DNA of 64,000 nucleotides from Bacilli bacterium (GTDB taxonomy: Bacteria > Bacillota_I > Bacilli_A > RFN20 > CAG-826). The position numbers and the translations under genes were made by a program. Below, piece after piece: positions 19,269 to 61,565 of the stretch (the stretch's first letter is position 1; every line of letters starts with the position of its first letter). The stretch is from NCBI GenBank assembly GCA_022641095.1, contig JALCDB010000001.1:62001-126000 (forward strand). The letters are read 5' to 3'. The notes beneath the pieces were generated by a model. That model was not told where the DNA came from and made no database searches. It saw only the letters and a program-made list of their open reading frames with translations.

Positions 19269-19297
19269 TTGCATTCGCGTGCACGCATGTATAGAAT
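19269..19297 (+). promoter_or_regulatory. Promoter of the riboswitch-controlled surface operon
   Basis: TTGCAT (19269-19274), a 17-bp spacer and TAGAAT (19292-19297) form a sigma-A-type promoter. The predicted transcription start, near 19304, is just a few bases before the aptamer, as expected for a riboswitch leader. Confidence 0.65.
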
Positions 19298-19310
19298 GCA
19301 AATAGTGAAA

Positions 19311-19380
19311 GGTAGAACCGGAGCAATTCGGCGACGCAAAACTAGAGGGTCTCGCCATCGTCGAGAGACAGCCAGTTGCC
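19311..19380 (+). promoter_or_regulatory. Cyclic-di-GMP-I (GEMM) riboswitch aptamer
   Basis: The leader folds as a class I c-di-GMP aptamer. P1 pairs GGUA (19311) with UGCC (19380). P2 is the CCGGA/UUCGG hairpin closed by a GCAA (GNRA) tetraloop. The diagnostic GACGCAAA follows. P3 is AACU...GGGUCUCG/CGAGAGACAGCC...AGUU. These match the GEMM consensus, including the tetraloop that docks on P3. The surface-gene ATG is only 17 nt after the aptamer and no terminator intervenes, so control of ribosome access is more likely than attenuation. I could not run a covariance model. Confidence 0.8.
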
Positions 19381-19397
19381 ACGAATAGGGCATTTTA

Positions 19398-21872
19398 ATG
19401 GCGGGACCAAAGAAGAAATCGTCAATTGGGAAATCGCGTCTCATCGTGAACGCGGTCCTTTTGATTCTCTCGATTCTCACGATGAGCGTGGCCAGTTACG
19501 CCTGGTTCGCCACCAGCCAGCAGGCGACCGACCAAATAACACTGAGAACCGACGGAAACGCCATTTCGATAGACGCCTATGCCTATCGCCAGAACTACGA
19601 GCTCGACGGCGAAGGGAACCCCATCCCGGTCGCCTACAGCAAAAACGGAGGGTCGGCTTTGCTGAACGCCACGAAAGGCGCGACCGACAGCGCGGGCAAT
19701 TACGCCGTCAACTTCTCGAGCGAGGCGCTGCAGACTTTCGCTTATGGCGACCTCTATAGCGGCGAACTCGCCGCCAACGAAGCGAACTTCCCCCATCTTT
19801 ATATCGAACTGCGCTACATCAAGCCCGCCCTTAACGGCTTCGTCCAGGCCGCCATATCGGATTTTTCCTACGCCCCCGACATCGCCGGGTTCACCAATAT
19901 AACGCAAGAGCTCGACTACCAGTACCGTTCCACCACCGTTCAGAACACCTCTTCGAGCAAGCACGTGAACGGCTTGAAGGCCGCCTACGCCGATTCCGCT
20001 TACGCGGCGAGCCCTTGGACTTCCCTCGGCTCTGCCCCGAGCGACATCGAGCTTTACAACAACACGACCGATATCTCCGGATACGCCTACGATCCGAGCT
20101 ACACCCCGCTCAACCAATGCTATGTCAGAGGTTTCTCCTCCAAGCACAATTCCGAATACTACTATTCGAAGGCGACCCTCATCGAGTTGCGGGTCGACCC
20201 CCTCGCCTGGATCAAGTATTTCAACGCGAACCCGGGGCTCGACGCGAGCCGGCTCAACTTCGGCATATCGTTCAGCATCTCCCTGAATTTCTCCTCGACC
20301 GCCTTCTTCTCCAACGACAAAGCGCCGAAGCTCGTCGTCTCGAAAACGAGGGCCAACTTAAGCGTCGACGGGGGCGCGACGGCCAGTTTCATCGCCTATA
20401 ATTTCTCCGCGACCCCAACGATAACGACGGCTTTTTCGGCCTCGGGGGTCGCCAGCGCGTCCGTTTCCGGAACGACGATCGCCCTTTCGGGCATAAGCGA
20501 AGGGAGCGCCATCCTCACCCTCACCGCATCCGCCCCTTCCGAAACCGCCTCCGCCACCATCGAGGTCAACGTCTATAGCGGCCCGACTCTAGCCCTGTCC
20601 AGTTCGGCGATGACGATGACCGAGGGCGAGGACGACCTCATATCCGTCGAGCCGATCCTCTTCCGCAATTCCCCGACCCTATCCGTCGCGAACTCCGATG
20701 AGAGCGTCGCTTCCGCCACGGTCGTCTCCTATTCCGTTCTCGTCGAGGCCCTTTCCGCCGGAACGACGACGGTGACGGTCAGCGGCCGCGCCGGCGACGG
20801 CCACGTCTACAGTTCCTCCTGCCTCATCACCGTCGAGGCCGGAACGAGGTCGCTGACTTCCATCGCTGTGACGAGCCTTCCGAGGAAAACCGCCTATATC
20901 GTCGGGCAATCCTTCAGCACCGAAGGGATGGTGGTGACGGGGAGCTACAGCGACGGGACCGTCGGCGCCGTTTCCGGCTACCGGGTCGCGCCGTCTTCGG
21001 GAACGATCTTCACCGAGGACGAGATCGGAAGCGTCGCGATCGAGGTTTCCTATTTCGACGAGACCGCCTCCTTCTCCGTCGAGGTCGCCGCCAACGACAA
21101 TTATCGGCTCGTCACCTCGTCCAGTTGCCTGATTCAGGGGGAACGGTATCTGATCGCCTCCGGTTCGTCTTTGTCCGAAAGCGTCGATATCTTGGGCATT
21201 GAAGAGGAAAACGAGCATCGGTCGGCCGTTTCGTCCATCGTGTCCTCCTCGACGCCGCCCAGCATCGCGTACTCCTCAGCCATGGATGCCCTCACCCTCA
21301 ACGGAAACGAGGACGGCTGGCTCCTGAAAGAGAAAATCGACGGGGTTTCGCAATACCTTAATTTCCCCGGAACCGGTTCCGGCCTCCTCGGCGCGACGGA
21401 TGGGAACGCGACCGGATGCGCGTGGTCCATCGCTTTCGACGAGGCGACCGGGCGGGCCCGGATCCAAAGCGCTTCCTCAAGCGGGACTTATCTCCAATAC
21501 GATTCCGCGAACGGGTGCTTCGACTGCGGGGCGTCCCCGGATACCGTTTTCCTGTTCACGAACTCCCTTTCGGTAGCGGACACCTCTTTGACGCTCGTCC
21601 CCTCTTCGCTTGAGCTGTTCGTCGGCGACAGCGACGGCGTGACCGCCAGCGAGGGCCAAGGGACCGTTCTCGTCTCGGCCGCCATCGCCGACCCAAGCGT
21701 CGCCAGCATCGCCGTTGACGGGAATTACATCGAAGTGACGGGCCTCGCCGCGGGAACCACCTCGCTCACCGTCGTCGGCAAGGGCAACACGGGCGAGGTG
21801 AGGTCGAGTTGCCCCGTGACCGTTACGGACCCACCGCCGGAGGAAACCCCGGATACGGGGACGAATCCATGA
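19398..21872 (+). CDS. Secreted surface protein with Ig-like domains
   Basis: An 824-residue exported protein. The N-terminus has a basic stretch and one hydrophobic segment (LIVNAVLLILSILTMSVASYAWFATSQ); the SYAWF boundary resembles TasA/CalY-type secreted fibre proteins. Bacterial Ig-like domains follow: BIG_2-like repeats (about 310-480; LSVDGGATASF..., LTMTEGEDDLISV-type) and a BIG_3-like repeat (about 485-560; TAYIVGQSFSTEGMVVTGSYSDGT). A lectin-like segment (about 570-730) and a final BIG_2-like repeat come next. It has no sortase motif. It is the first gene of the c-di-GMP riboswitch operon and probably acts in adhesion or matrix. Confidence 0.82.
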   Translation: MAGPKKKSSIGKSRLIVNAVLLILSILTMSVASYAWFATSQQATDQITLRTDGNAISIDAYAYRQNYELDGEGNPIPVAYSKNGGSALLNATKGATDSAGNYAVNFSSEALQTFAYGDLYSGELAANEANFPHLYIELRYIKPALNGFVQAAISDFSYAPDIAGFTNITQELDYQYRSTTVQNTSSSKHVNGLKAAYADSAYAASPWTSLGSAPSDIELYNNTTDISGYAYDPSYTPLNQCYVRGFSSKHNSEYYYSKATLIELRVDPLAWIKYFNANPGLDASRLNFGISFSISLNFSSTAFFSNDKAPKLVVSKTRANLSVDGGATASFIAYNFSATPTITTAFSASGVASASVSGTTIALSGISEGSAILTLTASAPSETASATIEVNVYSGPTLALSSSAMTMTEGEDDLISVEPILFRNSPTLSVANSDESVASATVVSYSVLVEALSAGTTTVTVSGRAGDGHVYSSSCLITVEAGTRSLTSIAVTSLPRKTAYIVGQSFSTEGMVVTGSYSDGTVGAVSGYRVAPSSGTIFTEDEIGSVAIEVSYFDETASFSVEVAANDNYRLVTSSSCLIQGERYLIASGSSLSESVDILGIEEENEHRSAVSSIVSSSTPPSIAYSSAMDALTLNGNEDGWLLKEKIDGVSQYLNFPGTGSGLLGATDGNATGCAWSIAFDEATGRARIQSASSSGTYLQYDSANGCFDCGASPDTVFLFTNSLSVADTSLTLVPSSLELFVGDSDGVTASEGQGTVLVSAAIADPSVASIAVDGNYIEVTGLAAGTTSLTVVGKGNTGEVRSSCPVTVTDPPPEETPDTGTNP

Positions 21873-24523
21873 AGGAAACGCCAAGGAAGAAACTGAAAGG
21901 CACCCTCGGGGGCATCCTCGCGATAGCGATGGCCGCTTTCGTTTCGCTCAACGCCGTGAGCGCCCTCGCCGCCTACCTTTCCATCAGCCGGGACTTTTTC
22001 TCCGCCGACTACCGAACCGACGAGATCGGGGACACCTATTTCAGCGGGGGCGGCGGGACGAGCGAGGACCCGTACCTGATCGATAACGCGCAGAATCTGC
22101 GGAACCTCCAAAAGCTCAACGCCCTGGGACTCTTTTCCTCGGCGACCTGCTTTTCGCTTGGCAGTTCCTTCGTCTGGGACGACGCGGCGAAGCCCCTCCT
22201 GCCGATAGGAAGCGACGACCAGCCCTTCGACGGGACCTTCAACGGGCAAGGCAACACGATAACCTCGCTCGTGGTCGACGGCGACAACACCTGGGACGTC
22301 GGGATGTTCGGCTACGTCGGGATCAACGGCACGATCGAGAATTTCTTCCTCGACGCCCCGACCATCTGCCTCGGCGCCAACGACGGGGGCGGCTCCTCGG
22401 CGACGACCAACCCCCTCGACGTTTACCTGAAAAGCGCGGCCCAAGCGCTCCCCGAACCCCAAGGGAAAGACGCCGGGACGGGCTTAACGTGGACGAACGC
22501 GTCCGCTTCCTCGACGATTTCCGGATTGCAGCAAAGCGTGAGCGCCTCCATAGGCGGGACGACGAGGACCTTCCCCATCGATTGGAAATCGAGCGACCCG
22601 AGCCTTCTGAGCGAAAACGCCGACGGGACGTGGTCGACGCACGCCAATGGCCTCAGCGAGAACCCGGACACGGACCTTTACCAGGTCATGCTCACCGGAC
22701 GGGTCTACGGCCGCGTCGACGGGCAGGTGATGCCCTACACCCTCGAACGCTACGAAGTCGTCATCTACGGAAACGGGCTCATAACCGATGACACGGTCAG
22801 CCTTGAGACCGGGACGAGCTCCGCCGCCACCACCGTGACGCGCGGGATGTTCAAAACCATCTGGCCCCTCGACGGCAACGGAGCGGACACCGAATACCAT
22901 TCGATATACGTCGGCTTCTTTTGCGGCCATCTCGACGGGATGGCCACTTATCTCGGGCTCGTCGGGGGCAACTCCGCCTCGGGTTCCGCCAACGGCAAAA
23001 TCGTCGTTTCGGGAAGGATCGCCGAATCGCGGACCTGCCTCATCGGGCGCTGCCGCGGCGACGATGTGCGCGATGGCACCGGATCCAACCAATTCGGCCA
23101 TACGTACGACTTCACCAAGAACACGGACAGCTGGACCGCGATCGAGGCGCCGACCCAGGGCGCCTACACGGACCCTTCCCAGTTCAGCGCCCAGAACACC
23201 GCGGCGCAGAGCCTTAACGCGAAGTACGGGGTCGAATCGGCCAGCGACACCTATAAGTACCTGCGCCTTTACCCAAGCGTCACCCATGGCGCGGTCTCCT
23301 ACGATTACGAAGGGGAGGACGGCTCTTCGCAAACGGCCAGCGACGTGAGAACGCTCACGTTTTCCCACGCTTTGCAAGCCAACACCTACACCGCCTACCA
23401 CCGGACCAACTTCGCCTGGCCGACCTCCGACCTCAACGGGGACGGCCAACTTGACCAAAACGACATCCCGGAAGACGAGGAGGAAACGCGCTCCGACGTC
23501 ACGAGGAAACTAAGGAACTCAAGCGTGGACAACAACATGAACCTCGCGGCGGACTTCGCGCTCAATAACGGCATTTGGATCAGCACCAAGGGGGCCAACG
23601 ACGACGTCATGAACACCCTCATGGGCAATAACGTCTTCACCCTCAATTTCCGGATAACCTACGTGGCGAGCACCTCCAACCCGAACAAAACCGCCAATTC
23701 CTGGCAAATCCTTTACAACAACTACAACCCCCACATCGCCCGCCTGCAGATCACGAATTTCTGGGGTTATCTGTTTTTGGGCAGTTACTACGCCTTTATC
23801 TACAAGGACAGCCCGCTTCAGAATCTCCTTTGGTTCGACCTCCATCACCCCATGACGACGACCGACGACAGCACTTTCGCCCCCGTCACGGAAAACGGCG
23901 CGGACGCCTCCTACTACACCCCGGTTCCAATCGTCGCCGACGGAAGCCTCCAAGAAGCCAACGTGAGCGTCACCGTCGACCGCAACTCCTCCTTCTGGAC
24001 GACCATGTTCACGAATTGGCTCAGCAACGACACCTGGTATCCGTGCTTCGCTATCGGAGCCGGGAAGACGGATTCCTTGTCCCATGGCAACACGGCGTTC
24101 GATTACTGGTCCACCACCTCATCGCAGCGAGGGCTCCCCAACACAAACGAGCAGTTCTTTCACGATTCGTTCGCCCTCAACGGCGACCTCGATCTGAACT
24201 TGCTTTCCTTTCAGTGCATCTTCACCAACGCCAACGGCAACATCACCGACCTCATGAACAACGTCGACTACATCTACGACAAAACCGACTGCGCTTACGA
24301 CGCCAGCGCCGGCGCGTTCTCGGACTGGAACCGTTCGAGCGGGGTCAAGGTGAATTTCGACGTCACGACCGCCCTCACCAGCGGGAACTCCACCTATTAT
24401 TTCTACCGGGAAGTCGGCAACGGCGGCATCAATTCGACCGTCCACGCCCTTTATTCCAACGCGAATTACAAGCCCGCCAACGACGACAATTACCAAAAAG
24501 CGGACATCGAGGCCGTCCCATGA
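21869..24523 (+). CDS. Large secreted surface protein with GLUG-like region
   Basis: An 884-residue exported protein. The start at 21869 overlaps the upstream stop as ATGA; the longer ORF-track start lies inside the previous gene. A signal peptide (GGILAIAMAAFVSLNAVSALAAY) is followed by a right-handed beta-helix-like GLUG region (EDPYLIDNAQNLRNL...FDGTFNGQGNTITSLVV...NVGMFGYVG-type, about 60-150). The rest is a long Asn/Thr/Ser-rich beta region of unknown fold. It is probably a cell-surface adhesin, co-expressed with its neighbours. Confidence 0.8.
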   Translation: MKETPRKKLKGTLGGILAIAMAAFVSLNAVSALAAYLSISRDFFSADYRTDEIGDTYFSGGGGTSEDPYLIDNAQNLRNLQKLNALGLFSSATCFSLGSSFVWDDAAKPLLPIGSDDQPFDGTFNGQGNTITSLVVDGDNTWDVGMFGYVGINGTIENFFLDAPTICLGANDGGGSSATTNPLDVYLKSAAQALPEPQGKDAGTGLTWTNASASSTISGLQQSVSASIGGTTRTFPIDWKSSDPSLLSENADGTWSTHANGLSENPDTDLYQVMLTGRVYGRVDGQVMPYTLERYEVVIYGNGLITDDTVSLETGTSSAATTVTRGMFKTIWPLDGNGADTEYHSIYVGFFCGHLDGMATYLGLVGGNSASGSANGKIVVSGRIAESRTCLIGRCRGDDVRDGTGSNQFGHTYDFTKNTDSWTAIEAPTQGAYTDPSQFSAQNTAAQSLNAKYGVESASDTYKYLRLYPSVTHGAVSYDYEGEDGSSQTASDVRTLTFSHALQANTYTAYHRTNFAWPTSDLNGDGQLDQNDIPEDEEETRSDVTRKLRNSSVDNNMNLAADFALNNGIWISTKGANDDVMNTLMGNNVFTLNFRITYVASTSNPNKTANSWQILYNNYNPHIARLQITNFWGYLFLGSYYAFIYKDSPLQNLLWFDLHHPMTTTDDSTFAPVTENGADASYYTPVPIVADGSLQEANVSVTVDRNSSFWTTMFTNWLSNDTWYPCFAIGAGKTDSLSHGNTAFDYWSTTSSQRGLPNTNEQFFHDSFALNGDLDLNLLSFQCIFTNANGNITDLMNNVDYIYDKTDCAYDASAGAFSDWNRSSGVKVNFDVTTALTSGNSTYYFYREVGNGGINSTVHALYSNANYKPANDDNYQKADIEAVP

Positions 24524-25377
24524 ACGGACGCTCCCGGCTTAAAATGGCCGCCGAAATAGCCTTGATCGCGCTCACGGTCGGTTCTTTGTCCGTCGGCACT
24601 TACGCTTGGTTCTCGATGCAAAACCGGGCGACGGCGACCCTTTGGAGCATGCACATCGTAAAAGGGCTGAGCAACAAACTGAAATACTATCGGGGCAACT
24701 ACGATCCCGCGAGCGCCTCCTACACCGGTTATCCCGACATCCGGATGAGCGGAGTCGGCCCCTCCAACGCCTCGACGGTGTCTTCCTACGCCTCGGATTT
24801 CATCACCGTCCCCGGCGGGAAGTTCTCGTCCGGAGGGCCGCTTGACATCTCCCATCTGACCCCCGGATACTGCCAAACTTTCTCTTTCGAGGTCGGAAAC
24901 GATTCGGGAGCGGACATCCCGGTGGAGATGGACCTGACCTCCTTTCTTTCCCCCGAAAGCCCAACCAACCGGATTTACGACGGCGGGAACACCGATTGTC
25001 CCATCACCCTCGGAAGCGCGATCGACATCTATGCCAAAGGCTATGAGCTGAGCGATGACGACGTGGCCAACACCGCCTTCGCCAACTCTTTCGTCAAGGA
25101 TTACATGGAAGCGGCCCCTGAGGACCGTTTCACGTACCATGATATCCGCGACGGAGCGGGCCAAAAATACGTTCTCTATGATGGCATGATCCCAGGGAAG
25201 AAGACCTATATCGTTTTTCTCACCCTCGAGTTCACCGACTTGGGGGATACGTTTTACGCCTACGAGGGCACGGACGGAACCTACCTCTATTACGTTCGCT
25301 CCCCAAACGGAAGCAGCGACTGCTACCAAGGCCTTACCTTCGCGCTAAAGGATATTTTCATCAAGAACCCGGAATGA
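24520..25377 (+). CDS. TasA/camelysin-like secreted protein
   Basis: A 285-residue exported protein. ATG at 24520 overlaps the upstream stop as ATGA; the 515-aa ORF in the track is a false extension through another gene. The N-terminus (MAAEIALIALTVGSLSVGTYAWFSMQNRATATL) has the GTYAWF motif seen where SipW-type signal peptidases cut TasA/CalY fibre proteins. The body is beta-rich with an extended Gly/Ser/Tyr composition. It may be the fibre-forming member of the operon. No SipW peptidase is in the window. Confidence 0.72.
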   Translation: MNGRSRLKMAAEIALIALTVGSLSVGTYAWFSMQNRATATLWSMHIVKGLSNKLKYYRGNYDPASASYTGYPDIRMSGVGPSNASTVSSYASDFITVPGGKFSSGGPLDISHLTPGYCQTFSFEVGNDSGADIPVEMDLTSFLSPESPTNRIYDGGNTDCPITLGSAIDIYAKGYELSDDDVANTAFANSFVKDYMEAAPEDRFTYHDIRDGAGQKYVLYDGMIPGKKTYIVFLTLEFTDLGDTFYAYEGTDGTYLYYVRSPNGSSDCYQGLTFALKDIFIKNPE

Positions 25378-31030: not shown

Positions 31031-31736
31031 GGCGCTTCCTCTTAGCGAAAAGGGGCTCGCCCGTGAAGATGGCCCCAAAGAGAAGGAAAGAAACAAGGGC
31101 GATCGCGAAATAGAGAACCGTCAGAGACAAGTACAGCGGGTTGGCCATCAAGACGTCGCGGTAGGAGCGAAGGCAGATGCGGACGAAGAGGATGATGAGC
31201 CCGCTCATGAGCCATAAAGAGAGGAACTCGGCTAAGCAACCCAAGCCTTCTTTCTTTTTGGCCTCGGCTTCTTTCTCGATCCGCGTGGCTTCCTCCAAGA
31301 GCCCTTTTCCGATCGTTAGGGGGTCGCCGCCTTGCTCCTCATAGATTTTGAAGAGGTTCGCGAAAGTCGCGAAATATGGTTCCCCGAAATAGGATTTGAG
31401 GCAATCGATCCGTTCCTCGATGGGGTCCTTCTCCACCGAGGAAGCCAAAGCGCTCAAAGAGGGGCTCGCCCCGCTTAGGCCCGCCTCAAAGGCCCGTTCG
31501 GGGGCCTTGCTCACCGAAAGGGTGATGAAGAAACCGTTCACGAACCGATAGCATTCCCGGCGTTTCCTTTCTTTAACGAAATGCCCTTCGATCATTGGCG
31601 CCAAAAGGAGCGAAAGAACCACAAGAAAGAGAACGCCGACCCCTATTCCGATCGGAAGGCTCCACGTCACGAGATAAGCCAAAACGCCGTTAAGAAGGCT
31701 CACGGAAAAAGACGCCGCCAGCAGTTTGATTTTCAT
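31023..31736 (-). CDS. tadB: TadB-like inner-membrane platform protein
   Basis: A 237-residue T2SS F-domain protein. Two N-terminal helices (LLAASFSVSLLNGVLAYLV, IGIGVGVLFLVVLSLLLAP) precede the cytoplasmic region with FFITLSVSKAPERAFEAGLSGASPSLS and FKIYEEQGGDPLTIGKGLLEEA, then two C-terminal helices. It overlaps the ATPase gene upstream and tadC downstream, giving the usual tadA-tadB-tadC order. Confidence 0.75.
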   Translation of the reverse strand: MKIKLLAASFSVSLLNGVLAYLVTWSLPIGIGVGVLFLVVLSLLLAPMIEGHFVKERKRRECYRFVNGFFITLSVSKAPERAFEAGLSGASPSLSALASSVEKDPIEERIDCLKSYFGEPYFATFANLFKIYEEQGGDPLTIGKGLLEEATRIEKEAEAKKKEGLGCLAEFLSLWLMSGLIILFVRICLRSYRDVLMANPLYLSLTVLYFAIALVSFLLFGAIFTGEPLFAKRKRHA

Positions 31737-32689
31737 TTCCCTCTCCTTTGAAAAACGACTTCGATTTCACCCGTCCGCGGGTTGGTTCGGCCGATTTCCT
31801 CGACGCGGCGCTCAACCTTCCCGTCGTCCCGTTGTCGCTTGCCAAGGAAGGCGAAATAGCGGAAGAGGCGATGAACGTCATCGGAGAGTTCCGTTTCGCT
31901 TAAGCGCCTATCCCCCATCATCGCGAGCCGCGCCATCCGCTCAGGCATCTCGAGGAGGCTCTTCGCGTGAATCGTCGTTATGATCGCGTGGCCGCTGAGG
32001 GCGGAGAGGATCCCTTCAAGCATCTCCCCGCCCCGCGCCTCGGCGATCACGATGTAATCCGGATCGCTGCGTAACGCGTTTTTCACCAAAAAGGGAAACG
32101 TCGCCATGGGAAGCGAATCGTTGACGAGCCACGTCGTCAGATCGATATTGGGGTTGCTCACCATCCCCAACTCCTCCAAGTTGTCGATCACGATGACCCG
32201 TTTGTTTCCCTCCATCCGCCGCAAAAGCCACTTCTCGAGTTCCGTCTTCCCACTTGAAGTCGGGCCTCCGATGACGATGTTTTCGCCTTCCTTAAGGGCC
32301 GTAAGCAAAAAAGGCTTCGAACCGCCAAAAAAATCGCCGTCCCCTTCCAGAATGTCCCGATCGCTTCCGATCCGAAGGGAGAAAGAGCATGTCTTCGCGT
32401 CATGGCTGCGCGAAAGGGAAGGGAAGACCGCGTTGAGCCGGTAACGGGAAAAGGAGACGTCAAGGATCGGGGACCGATAGGAGAATTGGCGTTCGGTCAG
32501 ATTGGCGATCTGCCGCAGGAAAGCCGCCACGTCGCCCTCATCCTGTCGAAGGTCGGCCTTGCGCCGCCCCTCCTCGTTGGCCTCGTAAAAGAAGCTCTCC
32601 CCGTTATAGGAAACGTCGGTGACGCCCGGAATCAAGAGTATGTCCTTTAGAAACGAGGATTCCAGGAACCGAACCGCCCGCTCACTCAT
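31733..32689 (-). CDS. tadA: TadA/CpaF-type secretion ATPase
   Basis: A 318-residue member of the GspE/TadA ATPase family. It has a short N-terminal domain (VSYNGESFFYEANEEGR), Walker A GGPTSSGKTELEKWLL (about residue 145), an Asp box near VIDNLEELG, and Walker B/His box IVIAEARGGEMLEGILSALSGHAIITTIHA. It powers pilus assembly at the inner face of the membrane. It is shorter than CpaF proteins, which have longer N-termini. Confidence 0.9.
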   Translation of the reverse strand: MSERAVRFLESSFLKDILLIPGVTDVSYNGESFFYEANEEGRRKADLRQDEGDVAAFLRQIANLTERQFSYRSPILDVSFSRYRLNAVFPSLSRSHDAKTCSFSLRIGSDRDILEGDGDFFGGSKPFLLTALKEGENIVIGGPTSSGKTELEKWLLRRMEGNKRVIVIDNLEELGMVSNPNIDLTTWLVNDSLPMATFPFLVKNALRSDPDYIVIAEARGGEMLEGILSALSGHAIITTIHAKSLLEMPERMARLAMMGDRRLSETELSDDVHRLFRYFAFLGKRQRDDGKVERRVEEIGRTNPRTGEIEVVFQRRGK

Positions 32690-53324: not shown

Positions 53325-56300
53325 TCACGACATGAAGTCAGCCGCCTCGGACTTTGTGAACCCCAGACTTATCAGATAGTTCCTCAACGCTGGTTCGTTC
53401 TCTTCGCTCGGCTTGTACCCCATCAGCGACAAAGCAAGAAGTTTTCCTCCCCTGCTCATTCCTGCGGAATTGACGAGTTTGAGAGTCTGCTGCTTTTTCG
53501 TCATGTATTTTGTATCGGACAGTTCGGAAGCCTGCTGTATGAGGAGGAGGTTCATCGCGATGTCGAAATCTCCTCCTGCGTACGCAAGCAGGCGACCAAG
53601 TTGCGAAGTGGGCTCGATTCCGACCGCTTTGTACTTAGCGGCCTCATAGAAGGCGTCGTATGCCTTTTTGATTATCTTTGCTTTCGCGTCGTCGCCCATC
53701 TTCTGATAGACGCTGGACGATATTACCTTGTCTACGGCGCTGGCTGATTTTGAGTAGAACGCCCTGAACGCCGCAGTCTCTTCGGACGTAAGGTAAACCG
53801 TGTTCCCGTCCTCGTCGGTGTAGTAAGTAGGGACGTTCTTGGCTACGGCGTTTGAATATCCTGCGATGGACAGCCTAGAAATCTCCATAAGCTGGTTCCT
53901 AGAGGCGTTTCCTATTTTGTACATAGAATAAAGCGTTCCCAAATCGGAGACGGCATCGGTCAGGTTCCCGTCGTCTACTGACGACTTGTACGAAGCCGTT
54001 ATGCTCTTGGCCGAAAGGTTTTCAAGCCATCCGTACATGCTCATGTACGTACCCTCGTCGATGCTCTTGATTATCCCCTTTATCAGCTTGTAGACGTTGT
54101 TAGCCGGTATTCCTAGGAATTCGGCCATGTCCCTAGCGAAAACGTTGATTGCGGCCCTCAGCTTGGCCTCGTCTCCTCCAGACGAGATTATCGACTTGAC
54201 CGAATCTACGAAATTGTTGATTCTGTCAAGCGTGAAAACCGAGACGTCGCTGTTGTTTTCCACAGAATTTGCTATGGTTCCGAGATACGGAATCCAGTTG
54301 ACGAACGCCTCAAGTGAAGCGTCCTTGGCGAATTCAGCGGCATCGACCGATTCGTCCCAGTCCTTCTTGCCGTAAACGCGGTCCATGAATTCTTTTATCC
54401 CGGCTGCTCCTAGACCGGAAAGTATAAGCCCGGCAATGGTCCCAGCCGTCTTCTTGGAGTAAGCCTTCTTCGAATACGATTTGTCCCATTTTGCTTTTTG
54501 GGACTTGGCAAAGTCCCTGTCTTCCTGAGAGGCGTTTTCGTCGTTCATTGTTTTTTCGTATTCCGAGGCGCGTTTGCCGGCGTTGGCCTCCTCGAACGTT
54601 GACTGGTTCACCTGCTGCGCCTTGTTTTGGTTGTCGGAGCCGAACAGACCCCACGCCATCCTCTTCAAGTCGCCAAGGTAGCGGCTTCTGAGAGGCGACG
54701 TGTACATGCTGTTGTTGTTCGACTGCGTCATAAGCAGAAGGTCGGTGAAAATCTCAGCCGACCTGCTGTCGCTGGCTTCTGAGCCTAAAGCGAATCCCTC
54801 TTCCTTCGCTATCGTCTCCGCCACCGCCCATACGGAAACGACGTTGTTCAGCTCATCGAGCTTCTCCATGCCAAGAAGACCTATCTTGTGGAACATGTTA
54901 AGCGTCTCCGTGGACAGTTTCCCCTTGGCGAGCCCGTGGTTCTCGACGCGCTCCTTGAAAATCGGGACCAGACGCTTAATCTTCTCGGCGACGCTCTTGG
55001 CGTGCAAAAGGTTGTATCCCATCCTCGGAATTGAGCGCATGTACGTAGAGACTCCGCTCTCACCCATTACCGTAAACGAGGAAAGCAACTGCCTTAGCTG
55101 TGAGCCGATGTTCAATGAAAGCACCGATGCCTGAAGATTGTTCGTAATACTGGTCAATTTACCGCCCTTTGAGAATGACATGTCGTCAAGCAAAACATGC
55201 GTCATGTAGTTTCTCCAGTTGACGCCGCTATTCCAATCAGGGCATGTCTCGGACATTATTTGGTCAAGGGACTCCCCGTCAATCTTGACGTTGAGCTGGA
55301 TTCTGACGTCATCCAAGAATGACGTGTAACCCTCGCGGAACGAAAGGTCGTCGATATATTGGTCAATCTGTTCCGTGAATCCGATTATCTTCATCGGCTT
55401 TCCGTGCTCGACGCGGGCCTTGGTCCTTCCCCAAGACGCTCCGCTGATGTAGTTCCTTCCGGAAATCGCGCCCTCGTTCATTTGAATCTGCGACCCGTCG
55501 GTTTGCGTTCCGAAATAATTGTCCTCAATCTCAGGCGTGACTCCGAACGTGTCTTTATACCATTTGATGTATCTTGATGTCCCGTTTCCGTTGAGGAACT
55601 CCTTGACTATGGCTTTCGTGCAGGCGAGTTCGTCTTCAGTCAGCAGCTTCTCCAAACGTTCCTTGTCTCCCTGCTGCAACGGGAACATGGTAGAGACCTT
55701 TTCCCTTCCAGAAACCAGAGAAATCTTGTTGTTTCCGACTATCTCCGGCCTAGTCTCCATCGTGAAGATGATGGCCGCCGCCTGCGACTTGGTCATCTTT
55801 ATTCCCTTGAAGTTGACTTGCTTGGAAAGCGCGGCTCCAAGCGATTTTCCAATCTTCCTGTCGCTGAATCCGTATCTTTCCGAAATGGAGTTCACGAAAG
55901 ACTCCATCTCGTGCTTGTTCCTCAGCTTCGAGTTCTCGGCTTTCTGCCATCCATGCGTAGAAGCCTCGTAAAGCGGATGCTCCTTTCCAAGGTAGGTTGC
56001 GATGAAAGTAGGGATGTTCATGGAGGAATCCTTATACGAGGTGATTACTCCTGCGTGCTTGCCTACGCGAGCGTTGCGAGTGTATCTGGCCGCCATCACG
56101 CCGTCTTTGGCTTTCGCGACCTGAGCGTCGTGCTTAGCTAGGCTCTGCTCATTCAAGTCATGGGCTATGCTGTCCATGATGCTTCGTACGTGGCTCATGT
56201 CCTCGACTGATAGCTCTTTGTTTACGTCTATCCCTGAGGCGTATTTCTGCGAAAAGTAATCCAAGTCGTTTTTGATTGACTGGTTGAACCCGATTACGCT

Positions 56301-59300
56301 TCCGACATAATTCTCAGACGTGTATCTTGACGCCATAGGGATAATCGTGTTCTTGATGTAGTTCGGAGACACCGTCAATCCAGAATGCGAAATCCTGAAT
56401 CCCTTTACGAACTCGTGGTAAAAGTCCGCGATGGAGGCATCGATGTCAGAATATCCCTGCAGATACTGTCTTGTTTTATCGAATTTGTTTTTCAAAGACA
56501 CCGCTTTGTCTCTGATGTGTGACACGACCTTCGTTCTGTCAAGCAATGTCGACATCATGTCTTTGAGCCTATTCATAGATTTCTCGAATTTGGCTTTCTC
56601 TGTTTCTTTGCCAGCGGACGATATGACGTCGTATGCCGCCTCTTTAAGAACTTTAATCTGAGGCTCGGCGACATGCTCAGAAGCATCGTCAACCATCTCC
56701 ATGGCAGTGCCTCCATCAAAAACAGCTGAGCGTGAAATGGCCTTGTCCACGATTCTATCTACTGCTAGTTTTACATCTCGCTCGTTGCCGAGGTTCAGCG
56801 CGGCGAAAAGCTCTTTTCCGTCGATTGCGGTTCCGTTTGTTTCATCTGCTCCTATAATCTTCTCCAGTTCAGCGATGACGTTCTTTCCTGCGTCAATGGA
56901 AGATTTGAGCGTATATGAAAGCTCTTTGTTTCCCTGAGCGCTGTCTTTGATTAGCTCGGCGTTTTGCCTAATGTTCCTCGCCACTTTGCCGGAGTATGGA
57001 GGATTGTCGGCCTGAGGTTCGCTTGTCTTAACTTCATTATTGGATGGAGCCGTTTCGGCTGGTGCACCGGTGCTATCAGTTTTATTGTCGGCAAGAGATT
57101 CCGCGTAATCCATAAACGCGGATTTGAAGTCATCTACAGCATTGCTTAGGTCCTCATGCCATGCGTCCATGCTGCCGCTGGTCGAATCGTAATATGCCGA
57201 CGCGTTTTCCAAGAAGTCGTCAAAAGGATAATTGTTTTCTTCGCCTTCCAGATACAAATATGCGCTTGTCGCCCTAGCTAAATCTGCATCGCTTATATTG
57301 CCTTCGTAAGAAAGCGTTTCAAGCTCACTCCTCATGCTGTCCAAATCATCTATCAGCGTTGGGATTAGGTTTCCGTTAGCGAGAGTCCTGTAAGCGTTGA
57401 AGGCCTCCGCCGAGCCGTCTTCAGGCTCAGTGGCCAAGTCGCTTGAGTATTTGGCCACGATGCCCGCTAGTATCGTTGAATCAACTGGCATGTCGCCGCT
57501 GTATTGGTCGGCATTCTCCTCGTATTTTGTATACGGAAATTTAGGCTTGGCACGCTTGGCTACGTACGCAGGCACGTAATCTGAAGAGAGCTGTTTATCG
57601 ACATCGTAGCCTGATTTTACCAATAAGGCTTTTATTGCGGATGTGTCCTGACCGACTTTCTCGAAATCAACCGATGAGATGGCTGATTGCAAAACGGTTT
57701 GCTTGGAGGCATTCGAATTATCCGCTTTCCACTTTTTATAGGTGTCAACCGTCCACTTGTCTCTTATCGCCGAAGATGCGTCCCAATCCCCAGATGGGCA
57801 AGCGGCGGAGTCGTGTATATATCTTTGAATCTCTTCGAGAGAATCAAACATTGCCTTGTATTCTCCCGAATATTTCATGAAAACAATAGGCTCTCCGTTG
57901 TTCTTTGCGGTGAAAGAATCCTTTATTCTCGAATCTATGAACGAAGGGTCAAATGGAGTACTTGATGTTGGAATAAAACCATATTTTGAATAAAGCATCG
58001 GAAGGTTGACGCCCTCTCCGACTATGTTATAGCAATCAAGTTTTATCCCGCCGTTGTCTATTGCCAAAGCCATGGCTTTGTCGACGAACCCTTTGGTCGT
58101 ACCTACGTTTATGACGTTTATGATGTCTCCATCTGAAAGAACCGAAATAGACGATTTGCCGTCAGGCGACACAAGCGTGAACTTCGCTTTTTGAAAATCT
58201 TCGAGAGAATGCTCCGAAAGTTTCTGCCTAACCTCAGGGTCGATTGTTTCCATGAGGTTTTTAATCGCTTTATAAGTTGCGTTTGGGGCGTTTACTAGAT
58301 ACTCGTTTCCATCGGAATCTACGATTAAATCCAGTCTTCCACCGCTTTCACCGGTGGCGTATTCTTCTCGTAGCAGCTTCTTAGATATTTCGCTAATTGG
58401 CCTTCTGGATTCATCTGCTCTTTTCCACTTGCCGCGAGATAAATTCCGTATGACACCGGATTCCCCTTCGCTGCCTTTGCTATTTCTTCCAAGTATTCTT
58501 TGAATGTCATTGTTTTCTCCTTCACCATTATTGCTTTGCTCGAAAGTATTTTCAAGCATATTTGATTTTTTACCATTTTGAGGTAGACTATTAGCGGAGG
58601 TATCACTTATGGGTTCCAAAACGCGATTCGTGCTCACTTGCACTGGGCGATTAGTCAAATTCGGAGATGGTTCAGACAAAGAGTTTTCTGATGGAGCTTG
58701 GGGGCCGGTTAAAGGCTCATTGCTCGGATTTGAGGTAGACCCAAGGGAAGACGGTACCGAAACTTTCGACTCAGAGGAAGATGCAGTCAAAGCTTTGAAT
58801 GATTTGGCTTCTTCGGATACCAAGGAACGCAAAGACATGAAAAGCTCGTCTTCTGATGCCTCTTTCCCCCAAGCTAAAGCGAAAGCCTGACCCTTTGCGT
58901 CGTATTCCTTTCTCTCGTCTTTTGATAATTTCTCAATATCAACACCGCGATACTTCTCGTAATAGGTATCGCTTTTCTTTTTGAGGTCCCAAGATTTCTG
59001 GTCGTGGAGCTGAATCTCAACGTTGATTCCCTTCTCGGTTTTCAAATTGAGATGTATGCCTTTATAATCTGGCTTGTCTTTTACATCTATTTTGATTAAC
59101 CCTTTTTTGATTTTCGCAATGATGCTGGGAACATTGTCTACCTGATTTTTGTCTTTGAATATGAAAGAGCCTCTTATAGGGTCCTTCAGGAGGTTTGGGT
59201 CCAATCCTCCTTTTTCTTTCGCGTTCCTGTAAATCCTATCCGCTATCGACGAGACGCTTTTCTGGCTAGGATTAAGTAGGATGTTTCCAGCGGCGTCCTC

Positions 59301-61565
59301 TCCCAAATCAAGACCGATTCCAAAATCCCTTGAAATGCTGTCGAACATCATTTCTTTCGTAACTCCGAATTCCTGCTTGGCTTTGGCGAAAAGGGTTTTA
59401 GCCATACCGAACAAAGGCTCTGTATTCCCATCCTCAACTATTTTTCCATTTGCCCCAATCTTCGCCTTTGATACGTCGAAAATCTTCCCACCATCTTTCC
59501 CGATTATCACATATTTGTTCTTGTCGGTGAGTTTTATATACGAATACGTATCGTCTATTTTGGTTATATCGGATTCCTTGGCAGATGACAAGGACTTAGC
59601 TTCTTCAGCAGTTATATCCTTACCGCTAAACGTTATTTTCTTTCCCGAATATTTTCCGCCTAGGGGCAATTCCATTTTTCCAAACACCGAAGGAAGCTTC
59701 CCAGAAGATATTAGGCTGAGAGACGTCTTCACTTCGCCTATGTTTTTAGGAGATAGAATCAGAGACTGACCTTGTTTTTTGACTGGGACTGATGGGCCGG
59801 TAGGGTCGCCTGAACTCTTTATGGAAATCTCGTTTGAACCCTTTTTTGCCTCAATCATTATTCTGCCGTTCATGCTTGTTTCATACTTTCCGGTTTCCGA
59901 GTTGAAAGACCAAGAGTTATTCTTGGCTGAATTATTCATTGAGGTGACCATATCAGTGGCATTGCTACCCTGAATTATCCTAGACATGAGGCTCTTCTGC
60001 GCATTTGTGAAAACCTTGTCGGCCACAACTTTCTCCCCATCGACTGAAACGAAGTCGCTTCCTTTAGCTGAGCTCTTGCTATGAACTGATTCGTAATCGA
60101 CCGAATCATACATCGCTTTGGCTTGGTTTATCGCTGATTCTTTGTACTGGTTCGCCATCTTCACGTTCTTATCAAGCCTAGCCAAAAGAGAAGATTGCTC
60201 TTTTTCCGACAAGCCTCCTTTAGCCATTTTTTTAATTATTTTTCCGCTTTCGCTTAGAACTGTATGCATCCTATCGTTCCAATAAGACGCCGTGTATCCT
60301 TCTTTGCCGCCAAGAGATACGTATTTTCCTGTCTCTTTTGCTGTCGTTATTATTCCGCTTGTGATAGCGCCCTGAGCGAAGGCAATACCTGCATTCTTGA
60401 ATGTTTCCATTGCTTTCTCATTTGAGCCATAGGCTTTGTTCAGAGCGTCGTCGTCATACGTAATCTGCTTTACCAACGGGTCTGAAAGCACCATGGCGGC
60501 CTGTCTTGTCCCATCTATTCCTGCCTTGGTCGCCATTGACGTTATAGTTCCAGTCAATGCGCCAGCTTGCTCAGCGGCTTTTTGACTTAGGCCAGAAGCT
60601 AATTTGTTTTTTACCGTTGCGTCTGCTACTTTCCCTCCGAGTTTATCGGCTACACCGCTTGTGCTGTTTGATGTGGCCGTTGCGCCTATCCCATATGTGA
60701 CTCCGGTTACAACAGCCGATATCCCTCCTTTCAAACCGCCATATGCCGAGGCGCTCTGGAATGATGCGCCTTCATTGGACGCCTGCGAGAACCCAGAGCC
60801 AGCTGCGCTAAGACCTGCATACCCAGCTTGGACAGCAACTCCAGCGATTTTCTTCCCTATGCTTGCACCGGCTGAAGAACCTCCTGTGGCTATCGCCAAA
60901 GCCAAGCTTGGAAGCAATTCTCCGATTGTAGTGCCAATCCCATACACGAAATTATTTACGTCTGAATTCCCAAAGACGTTTTTGTTCTCGTTTAGGTCAG
61001 CCCTTGCATCCTTTGCGCTCTGGCCCCAGTTGGTCCAGTATTCTGATTTCCATTTATCTGGGTTTAAGTAGCTAATCGGAGACGTGAGTTCGTTAATCTT
61101 CTGGGTTACCGTTGTGGCTTGGGCCACCCAATCGTATTTGGCGGCGTTTTGAGTCCATTCCGTTGTTCCGTTCGACTGCCCCCAGAATCCTCCTGAAAGC
61201 CCGCCAACGAGCATCATGCCGGCATCCCATACTGAATCGACGGCGTTGTAGATTCCTTCTGTTATCGACGTGCTTATATTGCCGAAGAAATCGCTGACAT
61301 TCTCCCACCAGCTTTTGCCCTCATCGTCATTGGCTCTTTTCTCCTTCTCGGCCTCGACCGACTTATACGCGTCTGTGCCTGCAACCGAAGAATTCTTATA
61401 TTGCGTGAGGAAGTTGCCAACCTGCTCATCGCTCAAAGAGGCGGCATCGAAAGATGTTCCGCCCACATCGTTGACCTGCTCGGGGTTCAAAGAGGAGATT
61501 CCCTCTTTCTTTCCCCCGAACATTATCTTCAGATATTCGCTTCTGCTTCTTGAATAGTCAGGCAT
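53325..61565 (-). CDS. 2746-aa polyvalent phage virion protein
   Basis: A single 8.2-kb frame. Residues ~210-340 are Gly/Ala-rich and hydrophobic, as in internal virion/ejection proteins. Residues ~795-875 (DPIRGSFIFKDKNQVDN...DYKGIHLNLKTEKGINVEIQLHDQKSWDLKK) resemble a RelA/SpoT-type nucleotidyltransferase. Residues ~1145-1200 (GFVDKAMALAIDNGGIKLDCYNIVGEG...LYSKYGFIPTS) look like the GNAT-type domain found in phage polyvalent proteins. Long helical parts follow, with another hydrophobic stretch near 2370. It is probably packaged and injected into the host. AGGAGG precedes the start. Confidence 0.7.
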   Translation of the reverse strand: MPDYSRSRSEYLKIMFGGKKEGISSLNPEQVNDVGGTSFDAASLSDEQVGNFLTQYKNSSVAGTDAYKSVEAEKEKRANDDEGKSWWENVSDFFGNISTSITEGIYNAVDSVWDAGMMLVGGLSGGFWGQSNGTTEWTQNAAKYDWVAQATTVTQKINELTSPISYLNPDKWKSEYWTNWGQSAKDARADLNENKNVFGNSDVNNFVYGIGTTIGELLPSLALAIATGGSSAGASIGKKIAGVAVQAGYAGLSAAGSGFSQASNEGASFQSASAYGGLKGGISAVVTGVTYGIGATATSNSTSGVADKLGGKVADATVKNKLASGLSQKAAEQAGALTGTITSMATKAGIDGTRQAAMVLSDPLVKQITYDDDALNKAYGSNEKAMETFKNAGIAFAQGAITSGIITTAKETGKYVSLGGKEGYTASYWNDRMHTVLSESGKIIKKMAKGGLSEKEQSSLLARLDKNVKMANQYKESAINQAKAMYDSVDYESVHSKSSAKGSDFVSVDGEKVVADKVFTNAQKSLMSRIIQGSNATDMVTSMNNSAKNNSWSFNSETGKYETSMNGRIMIEAKKGSNEISIKSSGDPTGPSVPVKKQGQSLILSPKNIGEVKTSLSLISSGKLPSVFGKMELPLGGKYSGKKITFSGKDITAEEAKSLSSAKESDITKIDDTYSYIKLTDKNKYVIIGKDGGKIFDVSKAKIGANGKIVEDGNTEPLFGMAKTLFAKAKQEFGVTKEMMFDSISRDFGIGLDLGEDAAGNILLNPSQKSVSSIADRIYRNAKEKGGLDPNLLKDPIRGSFIFKDKNQVDNVPSIIAKIKKGLIKIDVKDKPDYKGIHLNLKTEKGINVEIQLHDQKSWDLKKKSDTYYEKYRGVDIEKLSKDERKEYDAKGQAFALAWGKEASEDELFMSLRSLVSEEAKSFKALTASSSESKVSVPSSLGSTSNPSNEPLTGPQAPSENSLSEPSPNLTNRPVQVSTNRVLEPISDTSANSLPQNGKKSNMLENTFEQSNNGEGENNDIQRILGRNSKGSEGESGVIRNLSRGKWKRADESRRPISEISKKLLREEYATGESGGRLDLIVDSDGNEYLVNAPNATYKAIKNLMETIDPEVRQKLSEHSLEDFQKAKFTLVSPDGKSSISVLSDGDIINVINVGTTKGFVDKAMALAIDNGGIKLDCYNIVGEGVNLPMLYSKYGFIPTSSTPFDPSFIDSRIKDSFTAKNNGEPIVFMKYSGEYKAMFDSLEEIQRYIHDSAACPSGDWDASSAIRDKWTVDTYKKWKADNSNASKQTVLQSAISSVDFEKVGQDTSAIKALLVKSGYDVDKQLSSDYVPAYVAKRAKPKFPYTKYEENADQYSGDMPVDSTILAGIVAKYSSDLATEPEDGSAEAFNAYRTLANGNLIPTLIDDLDSMRSELETLSYEGNISDADLARATSAYLYLEGEENNYPFDDFLENASAYYDSTSGSMDAWHEDLSNAVDDFKSAFMDYAESLADNKTDSTGAPAETAPSNNEVKTSEPQADNPPYSGKVARNIRQNAELIKDSAQGNKELSYTLKSSIDAGKNVIAELEKIIGADETNGTAIDGKELFAALNLGNERDVKLAVDRIVDKAISRSAVFDGGTAMEMVDDASEHVAEPQIKVLKEAAYDVISSAGKETEKAKFEKSMNRLKDMMSTLLDRTKVVSHIRDKAVSLKNKFDKTRQYLQGYSDIDASIADFYHEFVKGFRISHSGLTVSPNYIKNTIIPMASRYTSENYVGSVIGFNQSIKNDLDYFSQKYASGIDVNKELSVEDMSHVRSIMDSIAHDLNEQSLAKHDAQVAKAKDGVMAARYTRNARVGKHAGVITSYKDSSMNIPTFIATYLGKEHPLYEASTHGWQKAENSKLRNKHEMESFVNSISERYGFSDRKIGKSLGAALSKQVNFKGIKMTKSQAAAIIFTMETRPEIVGNNKISLVSGREKVSTMFPLQQGDKERLEKLLTEDELACTKAIVKEFLNGNGTSRYIKWYKDTFGVTPEIEDNYFGTQTDGSQIQMNEGAISGRNYISGASWGRTKARVEHGKPMKIIGFTEQIDQYIDDLSFREGYTSFLDDVRIQLNVKIDGESLDQIMSETCPDWNSGVNWRNYMTHVLLDDMSFSKGGKLTSITNNLQASVLSLNIGSQLRQLLSSFTVMGESGVSTYMRSIPRMGYNLLHAKSVAEKIKRLVPIFKERVENHGLAKGKLSTETLNMFHKIGLLGMEKLDELNNVVSVWAVAETIAKEEGFALGSEASDSRSAEIFTDLLLMTQSNNNSMYTSPLRSRYLGDLKRMAWGLFGSDNQNKAQQVNQSTFEEANAGKRASEYEKTMNDENASQEDRDFAKSQKAKWDKSYSKKAYSKKTAGTIAGLILSGLGAAGIKEFMDRVYGKKDWDESVDAAEFAKDASLEAFVNWIPYLGTIANSVENNSDVSVFTLDRINNFVDSVKSIISSGGDEAKLRAAINVFARDMAEFLGIPANNVYKLIKGIIKSIDEGTYMSMYGWLENLSAKSITASYKSSVDDGNLTDAVSDLGTLYSMYKIGNASRNQLMEISRLSIAGYSNAVAKNVPTYYTDEDGNTVYLTSEETAAFRAFYSKSASAVDKVISSSVYQKMGDDAKAKIIKKAYDAFYEAAKYKAVGIEPTSQLGRLLAYAGGDFDIAMNLLLIQQASELSDTKYMTKKQQTLKLVNSAGMSRGGKLLALSLMGYKPSEENEPALRNYLISLGFTKSEAADFMS

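Follow-up and report, generated by a model that had tools for sequence, protein, structure and literature searches.

The c-di-GMP riboswitch leader and the operon that it precedes

The window, a 64-kb stretch of DNA (C1:62001-126000) from a 1.59-Mb assembly that is 89% complete (G000), carries on its forward strand an operon of three overlapping genes, 19398-25377. The first gene, W1 (19398-21872), encodes an exported protein of 824 aa with a SYAWF motif and Pfam matches to Big_3 (PF07523) and to a pil_N-like domain (PF13629). W2 (21869-24523; 884 aa, LAAYL motif) and W3 (24520-25377; 285 aa, TYAWF motif) also encode exported proteins, each overlapping the preceding gene by ATGA; a Pfam search of these two returned no match. 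In all three proteins an N-terminal hydrophobic segment is followed by YAWF (W1 and W3) or AAYL (W2). The sequence-only reading of this DNA had tied the leader to three exported proteins, and the three genes with their N-terminal membrane or export signals bear this out, but the operon ends at 25377 and not at 21872. No TasA-type match to W1 or W3 was found in Pfam or NCBIfam, and a structure model of W3 (pLDDT 50) gave no significant fold match in the PDB, the TasA fold search being likewise empty. Elsewhere in the window, on the reverse strand, a T2SSE (type II/IV secretion ATPase) gene at 31736-32689 and neighbouring membrane proteins may make up a pilus-like cluster not far from the surface operon, and a 2,746-aa open reading frame at 53325-61565 has no Pfam match.

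The leader was scanned with Infernal cmscan against Rfam. The c-di-GMP-I family RF01051 (gathering cut-off 35 bits) matched positions 19301-19383 on the forward strand with 48.2 bits (E=2.3e-6 for the 64-kb window and 1.4e-8 for the genome), in agreement with the class I aptamer proposed earlier. Judged from its sequence, this leader RNA is a genuine class I c-di-GMP riboswitch and adds a member to a family already described. The G at 19311 (position 11 of the Rfam alignment) and the C at 19379 correspond to G20 and C92 in Vc2 numbering. With these assignments all canonical ligand contacts are kept in the Rfam alignment: G20, which contacts the ligand guanine, A47 at 19338, and C92, the partner of the ligand guanine. 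Of the parts named in the sequence-only reading, the P2 hairpin (CCGGA-GCAA-UUCGG, 19318-19331) with its GCAA (GNRA) loop, the GACGCAAA core (19333-19340, with A47 inside it) and the P3 stem (19340-19377) are all present, but P1 is poor, with about one G-C pair plus a possible GUG/CAC pairing, and with mismatches in the P1 of the GGC-type model RF03167 as well. In P1b, UG replaces a CG pair. The consensus CUAA/UAUG-type (11-nt-type) receptor is deleted from P3, the GCAA loop of P2 being present. The start codon (19398) lies 14 nt past the Rfam end of the aptamer, not 17 nt as had been claimed.

Upstream, a possible promoter, TTGCAT-17-TAGAAT (19269-19297), can be read just before the aptamer, where one had been placed; the candidate sequence stands, but it is weak (8/12 to consensus), and a consensus scan of the leader with a threshold of 9/12 found no promoter. 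A probable Shine-Dalgarno sequence, AGGG, is located at 19387-19390. A search for a terminator near the window leader found none, so that a terminator was rejected there and its reported absence agrees with our result.

Given the retained contacts, the window aptamer is predicted to bind c-di-GMP. An alternative ligand, either a different cyclic dinucleotide (3',3'-cGAMP, for instance) or that of a GGC-type variant, could be considered, since position 20 is A in 36 of 48 copies from the genus (G in 10 and C in 2; e.g. L041, L044, L030) and A20 has been tied to cGAMP preference in Geobacter, while the change A20G in a GEMM-Ib switch gives cdiG selectivity (PMC6456294). The GGC model RF03167 also matches the window copy (42.9 bits). 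The window copy itself, however, has G20 and A47, and its RF03167 score stays below the cut-off of 59, the core being GACGCAAA where the RF03167 consensus has GACGCGAA. We thus rejected both the GEMM-Ib (cGAMP) assignment, for the G at 19311, and the GGC assignment for this copy. In addition, all readable GGDEF domains whose GG[DE]EF-type motif is intact, including the three in G000, have the c-di-GMP-type Asp where Hypr enzymes have Ser or Thr. For this reason c-di-GMP remains the likely ligand, and for the window copy a switch for a different one is very improbable.

A predicted start-codon capture helix in the window leader

The 5' strand of P3, GGUCUCGCCAU (19348-19358), is an 11-bp complement of the start codon region, AUGGCGGGACC (19398-19408), and could thereby also act as an anti-start strand. 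The stacking energy of this helix is -23.2 kcal/mol, and equally good pairing was found in 0 of 227 other gene starts and in 0 of 3,000 shuffles in a gapless-helix test. That test replaced a generic duplex energy test, which was uninformative because it allowed long loops and scored 19 of 111 starts as well as this one. The helix is part of the minimum free energy fold of the window leader, and when nascent lengths were folded it displaced P3 once 19405-19408 had been transcribed. In the free (apo) fold the start region is predicted to be sequestered, with 2% of it unpaired in the ensemble, versus 33-41% when the aptamer is forced; the Shine-Dalgarno sequence is partly paired with the C92-containing UGCC in the same predicted fold.

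Translational control, which had been called probable, is supported by this start-sequestering helix, an element absent from the earlier reading. The helix predicts a translational ON switch, both the ON direction and the translational mode following from the modelled folds. The opposite arrangement, an OFF switch whose apo RNA is open and whose ligand-bound aptamer, ending 14 nt ahead of the start codon, keeps the ribosome out, would accord with several genus copies whose start lies 8-17 nt past the aptamer with no evident terminator or strong anti-start helix, where direct occlusion is conceivable. In the window, by contrast, it is the apo fold that buries the start codon and the aptamer-forced fold that exposes it, and the sister terminators described below, built on the aptamer 3' strand, are of an ON design; we regard an OFF switch as unlikely.

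In the computed energies the anti-start fold is favoured over the aptamer fold by ∼18-20 kcal/mol, with similar gaps in other genus copies. Such a gap requires kinetic control of the switch; otherwise the gene may be mostly off. The latter would fit a decayed, non-functional remnant, in which the aptamer is still recognisable and the anti-start helix holds the gene off; the weak P1, the UG for CG in P1b, a bit score below those of the other two G000 copies and the large energy gap itself point that way. Against this, all ligand-contact residues are retained, the energy gap falls within the range of the other copies, and the leader is identical in the close relative G008 despite 28 differences in the 1 kb upstream and 56 in W3, though W1 has only 3. 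Decay is thus an improbable explanation of the leader.

The same start capture was sought in 17 other close-start copies, and only the identical counterpart in G008 has it. Among the others, the G002 copy has a terminator and those of G015, G016 and G017 have aptamer 3'-strand hairpins that include the AUG, while the remaining copies show nothing clearly over background. The paralogous copy on contig C3 of G000 likewise has no comparable anti-start helix. The one relative that shares the helix, G008, is nearly identical, so it gives the helix no independent comparative support.

We consider it likely, on balance, that c-di-GMP turns on translation of W1-W2-W3 through the leader (19301-19397) when ligand is high. 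In the proposed mechanism, the start-codon region would, in the absence of ligand, capture the 5' strand of P3 in the 11-bp helix, and the C92-containing UGCC would pair with the Shine-Dalgarno sequence, so that ribosomes would be blocked from starting. The aptamer is transcribed ahead of the start region, so c-di-GMP bound co-transcriptionally could hold P3 and C92 within the aptamer, with the start remaining accessible.

Expression platforms of sister copies

Two further RF01051 copies occur in G000, at C2:18216-18302 (63.2 bits) and C3:76190-76264 (52.4 bits). Behind the C3 copy lies a paralogue of the W1-W2-W3 operon (identities of 40%, 47% and 34%, respectively), and in Ca. Alloenteromonas a riboswitch precedes W2-, W1- and W3-like genes. 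W3 belongs to a family of eight among riboswitch loci.

In many sister copies the aptamer 3' strand also forms the 5' arm of a terminator. In the C2 copy a hairpin of -33.7 kcal/mol is followed by UGUUUUUGUU, and the W1 homologue of G002 has a terminator of the form CCAGUUGC-loop-GCGACUGG-U6-AUG. Terminators that use the aptamer 3' strand would be on with ligand, the direction also predicted for the start-capture design. The pilM GEMM of Geobacter metallireducens is likewise an ON switch, in which, as in many sister copies, the RNA can form either the terminator or the aptamer but not both (PMC9262584); its ligand is cGAMP and its control transcriptional, whereas the window copy is apparently translational.

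Two other arrangements were observed. In G015 and G016 (L045 and L069) the hairpins of the aptamer 3' strand take in the AUG and have a U-run behind them, possibly combining terminator and start-codon capture. In A. granularum (L167), strain zrk2 (L175) and Izimaplasma HR2 (L177), 2-3 c-di-GMP-I aptamers lie within ∼1 kb, with spacings from 0.16 kb, and precede one gene group.

Linkage of the riboswitches to SipW-type secretion

The C2 riboswitch is followed by a membrane protein, a VAFF-motif protein, two genes, a SipW-like peptidase, and EAL and GGDEF-EAL proteins. From gene order and spacing, this cluster probably forms one transcript. The peptidase (C2:23745-24332) matches NF046067 with E=1.6e-13, yet under the curated cut-offs, and has candidate Ser, His and Asp residues. 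As the W proteins have SipW-type export signals, they may be processed by this SipW-like enzyme, which would itself be under a terminator-type c-di-GMP riboswitch; a role of the W proteins in surface fibres or biofilm may be suggested. We also noted that this cluster (L008:10217-19193 and L009:1-2240) contains AAA-like and DUF2357 proteins beside the peptidase, the EAL protein and a degenerate GGDEF-EAL protein, through which the switch may act back on c-di-GMP turnover.

To place this arrangement in a wider frame, Acholeplasma, Izemoplasma and related Bacilli were surveyed. Of 72 riboswitches, 40 have a SipW-type peptidase within 8 kb, where uniform placement would give 1.8, and these 40 are spread over 20 of 25 genomes; we read the figure as an enrichment and attach no P value, because neither the sites of one genome nor related genomes are independent samples. 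Presence of SipW did not by itself discriminate genomes with a riboswitch in the genus, as 36 of 37 genomes have it, so that the information lies in physical linkage alone. With a simple motif rule, a YAWF-type protein is among the first three genes at 32 of 42 readable sites of the genus (two of the 32 being GGDEF-EAL proteins caught by the loose rule), and several other sites have variants such as LAWI or VAFF. FAWF/YAWF proteins are also riboswitch-led in Acholeplasma granularum, A. oculi, strain zrk2 and HGW-Tenericutes-1, and some riboswitches of Izimaplasma HR2 lead FAYW/FAFW proteins.

These observations lead us to favour, by a modest measure, a c-di-GMP-I regulon common to the Mollicutes-adjacent Bacilli (Acholeplasma, Izemoplasma, Ca. 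Alloenteromonas and uncultured kin), whose main riboswitch output would be SipW-secreted YAWF surface or fibre proteins, with platforms that range from terminators to capture of the start codon by P3. The aptamer family itself is already known, and the interest lies in this clade-wide link with SipW-type secretion, a concrete and testable c-di-GMP output for the branch of Bacilli next to the Mollicutes. Because the cultured species A. oculi and A. granularum share the riboswitch-SipW-YAWF arrangement, a connection of c-di-GMP with secreted surface proteins could be examined at the bench.

Surface targets of c-di-GMP riboswitches have precedents. In Bacillus thuringiensis, also one of the Bacilli, such riboswitches (Bc2/cap and cbpA) lie in the 5' UTRs of surface adhesins (PMC4933901, PMC7423583), but the adhesins controlled there bind collagen and do not form a three-gene SipW-type operon. 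The C. difficile regulon likewise has several copies per genome and surface or adhesion functions (PMC6200980), in another lineage and with other targets, and its Cd1 is an OFF switch (PMC9262584). A SipW-type peptidase together with dedicated exported matrix proteins is known from sipW-bsaA of C. perfringens and tapA-sipW-tasA of B. subtilis (PMC7395162, PMC13082335). These are regulated otherwise, for example by SinR in B. subtilis, whereas the window operon is riboswitch-led and its proteins have no detectable TasA homology. In the literature examined we found no c-di-GMP riboswitch described for either of these two systems and no described c-di-GMP target for A. granularum or A. oculi, and a limited search found no report tying SipW-type systems to c-di-GMP riboswitches.

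Lineage and c-di-GMP enzymes

The PepF protein of the window is 100% identical to that of 'Bacilli bacterium isolate UW_MP_BACIL6_1'. Its next relatives (∼60%) come from MAGs labelled Erysipelotrichaceae, Clostridia, Bacillota and Bacilli and from Ca. Alloenteromonas pullistercoris, and those of Izemoplasma, Anaeroplasma and Acholeplasma are ∼45-51% identical. This supports a Mollicutes-adjacent lineage of Bacilli, as the sequence-only reading had supposed. Its remark that c-di-GMP signalling is little discussed there is fair, but not absolute, since 14 GGDEF/EAL proteins were noted in Acholeplasma laidlawii in 2008 (PMC2408644).

The suggested check for GGDEF and EAL genes showed that G000 does not lack diguanylate cyclases: it has three intact GGDEF genes above the cut-off and two EAL-domain proteins, one a degenerate GGDEF-EAL protein and the other strong and intact-looking. 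A search of G000 for PilZ gave no match. In the genus, GGDEF is present in 19 of 19 riboswitch genomes and absent from 14 of 18 others (Fisher's test, 5e-7). Among 36 genomes obtained via named records it is present in 25 of 25 with a riboswitch and absent from 10 of 11 without one (4e-8), A. laidlawii being the exception. Both figures describe associations, not strict probabilities, because related genomes are not independent. RF01051 had no match in 14 control genomes, and the riboswitch occurs in 91 of 196 genomes of the wider family. A. granularum and A. oculi have 11-15 GGDEF genes per genome. In four genomes (G001, G011, G010 and G009; L062, L063, L065 and L067), a riboswitch lies directly before a protein of 1,018-1,040 aa that matches GGDEF, so that c-di-GMP may there control its own metabolism.
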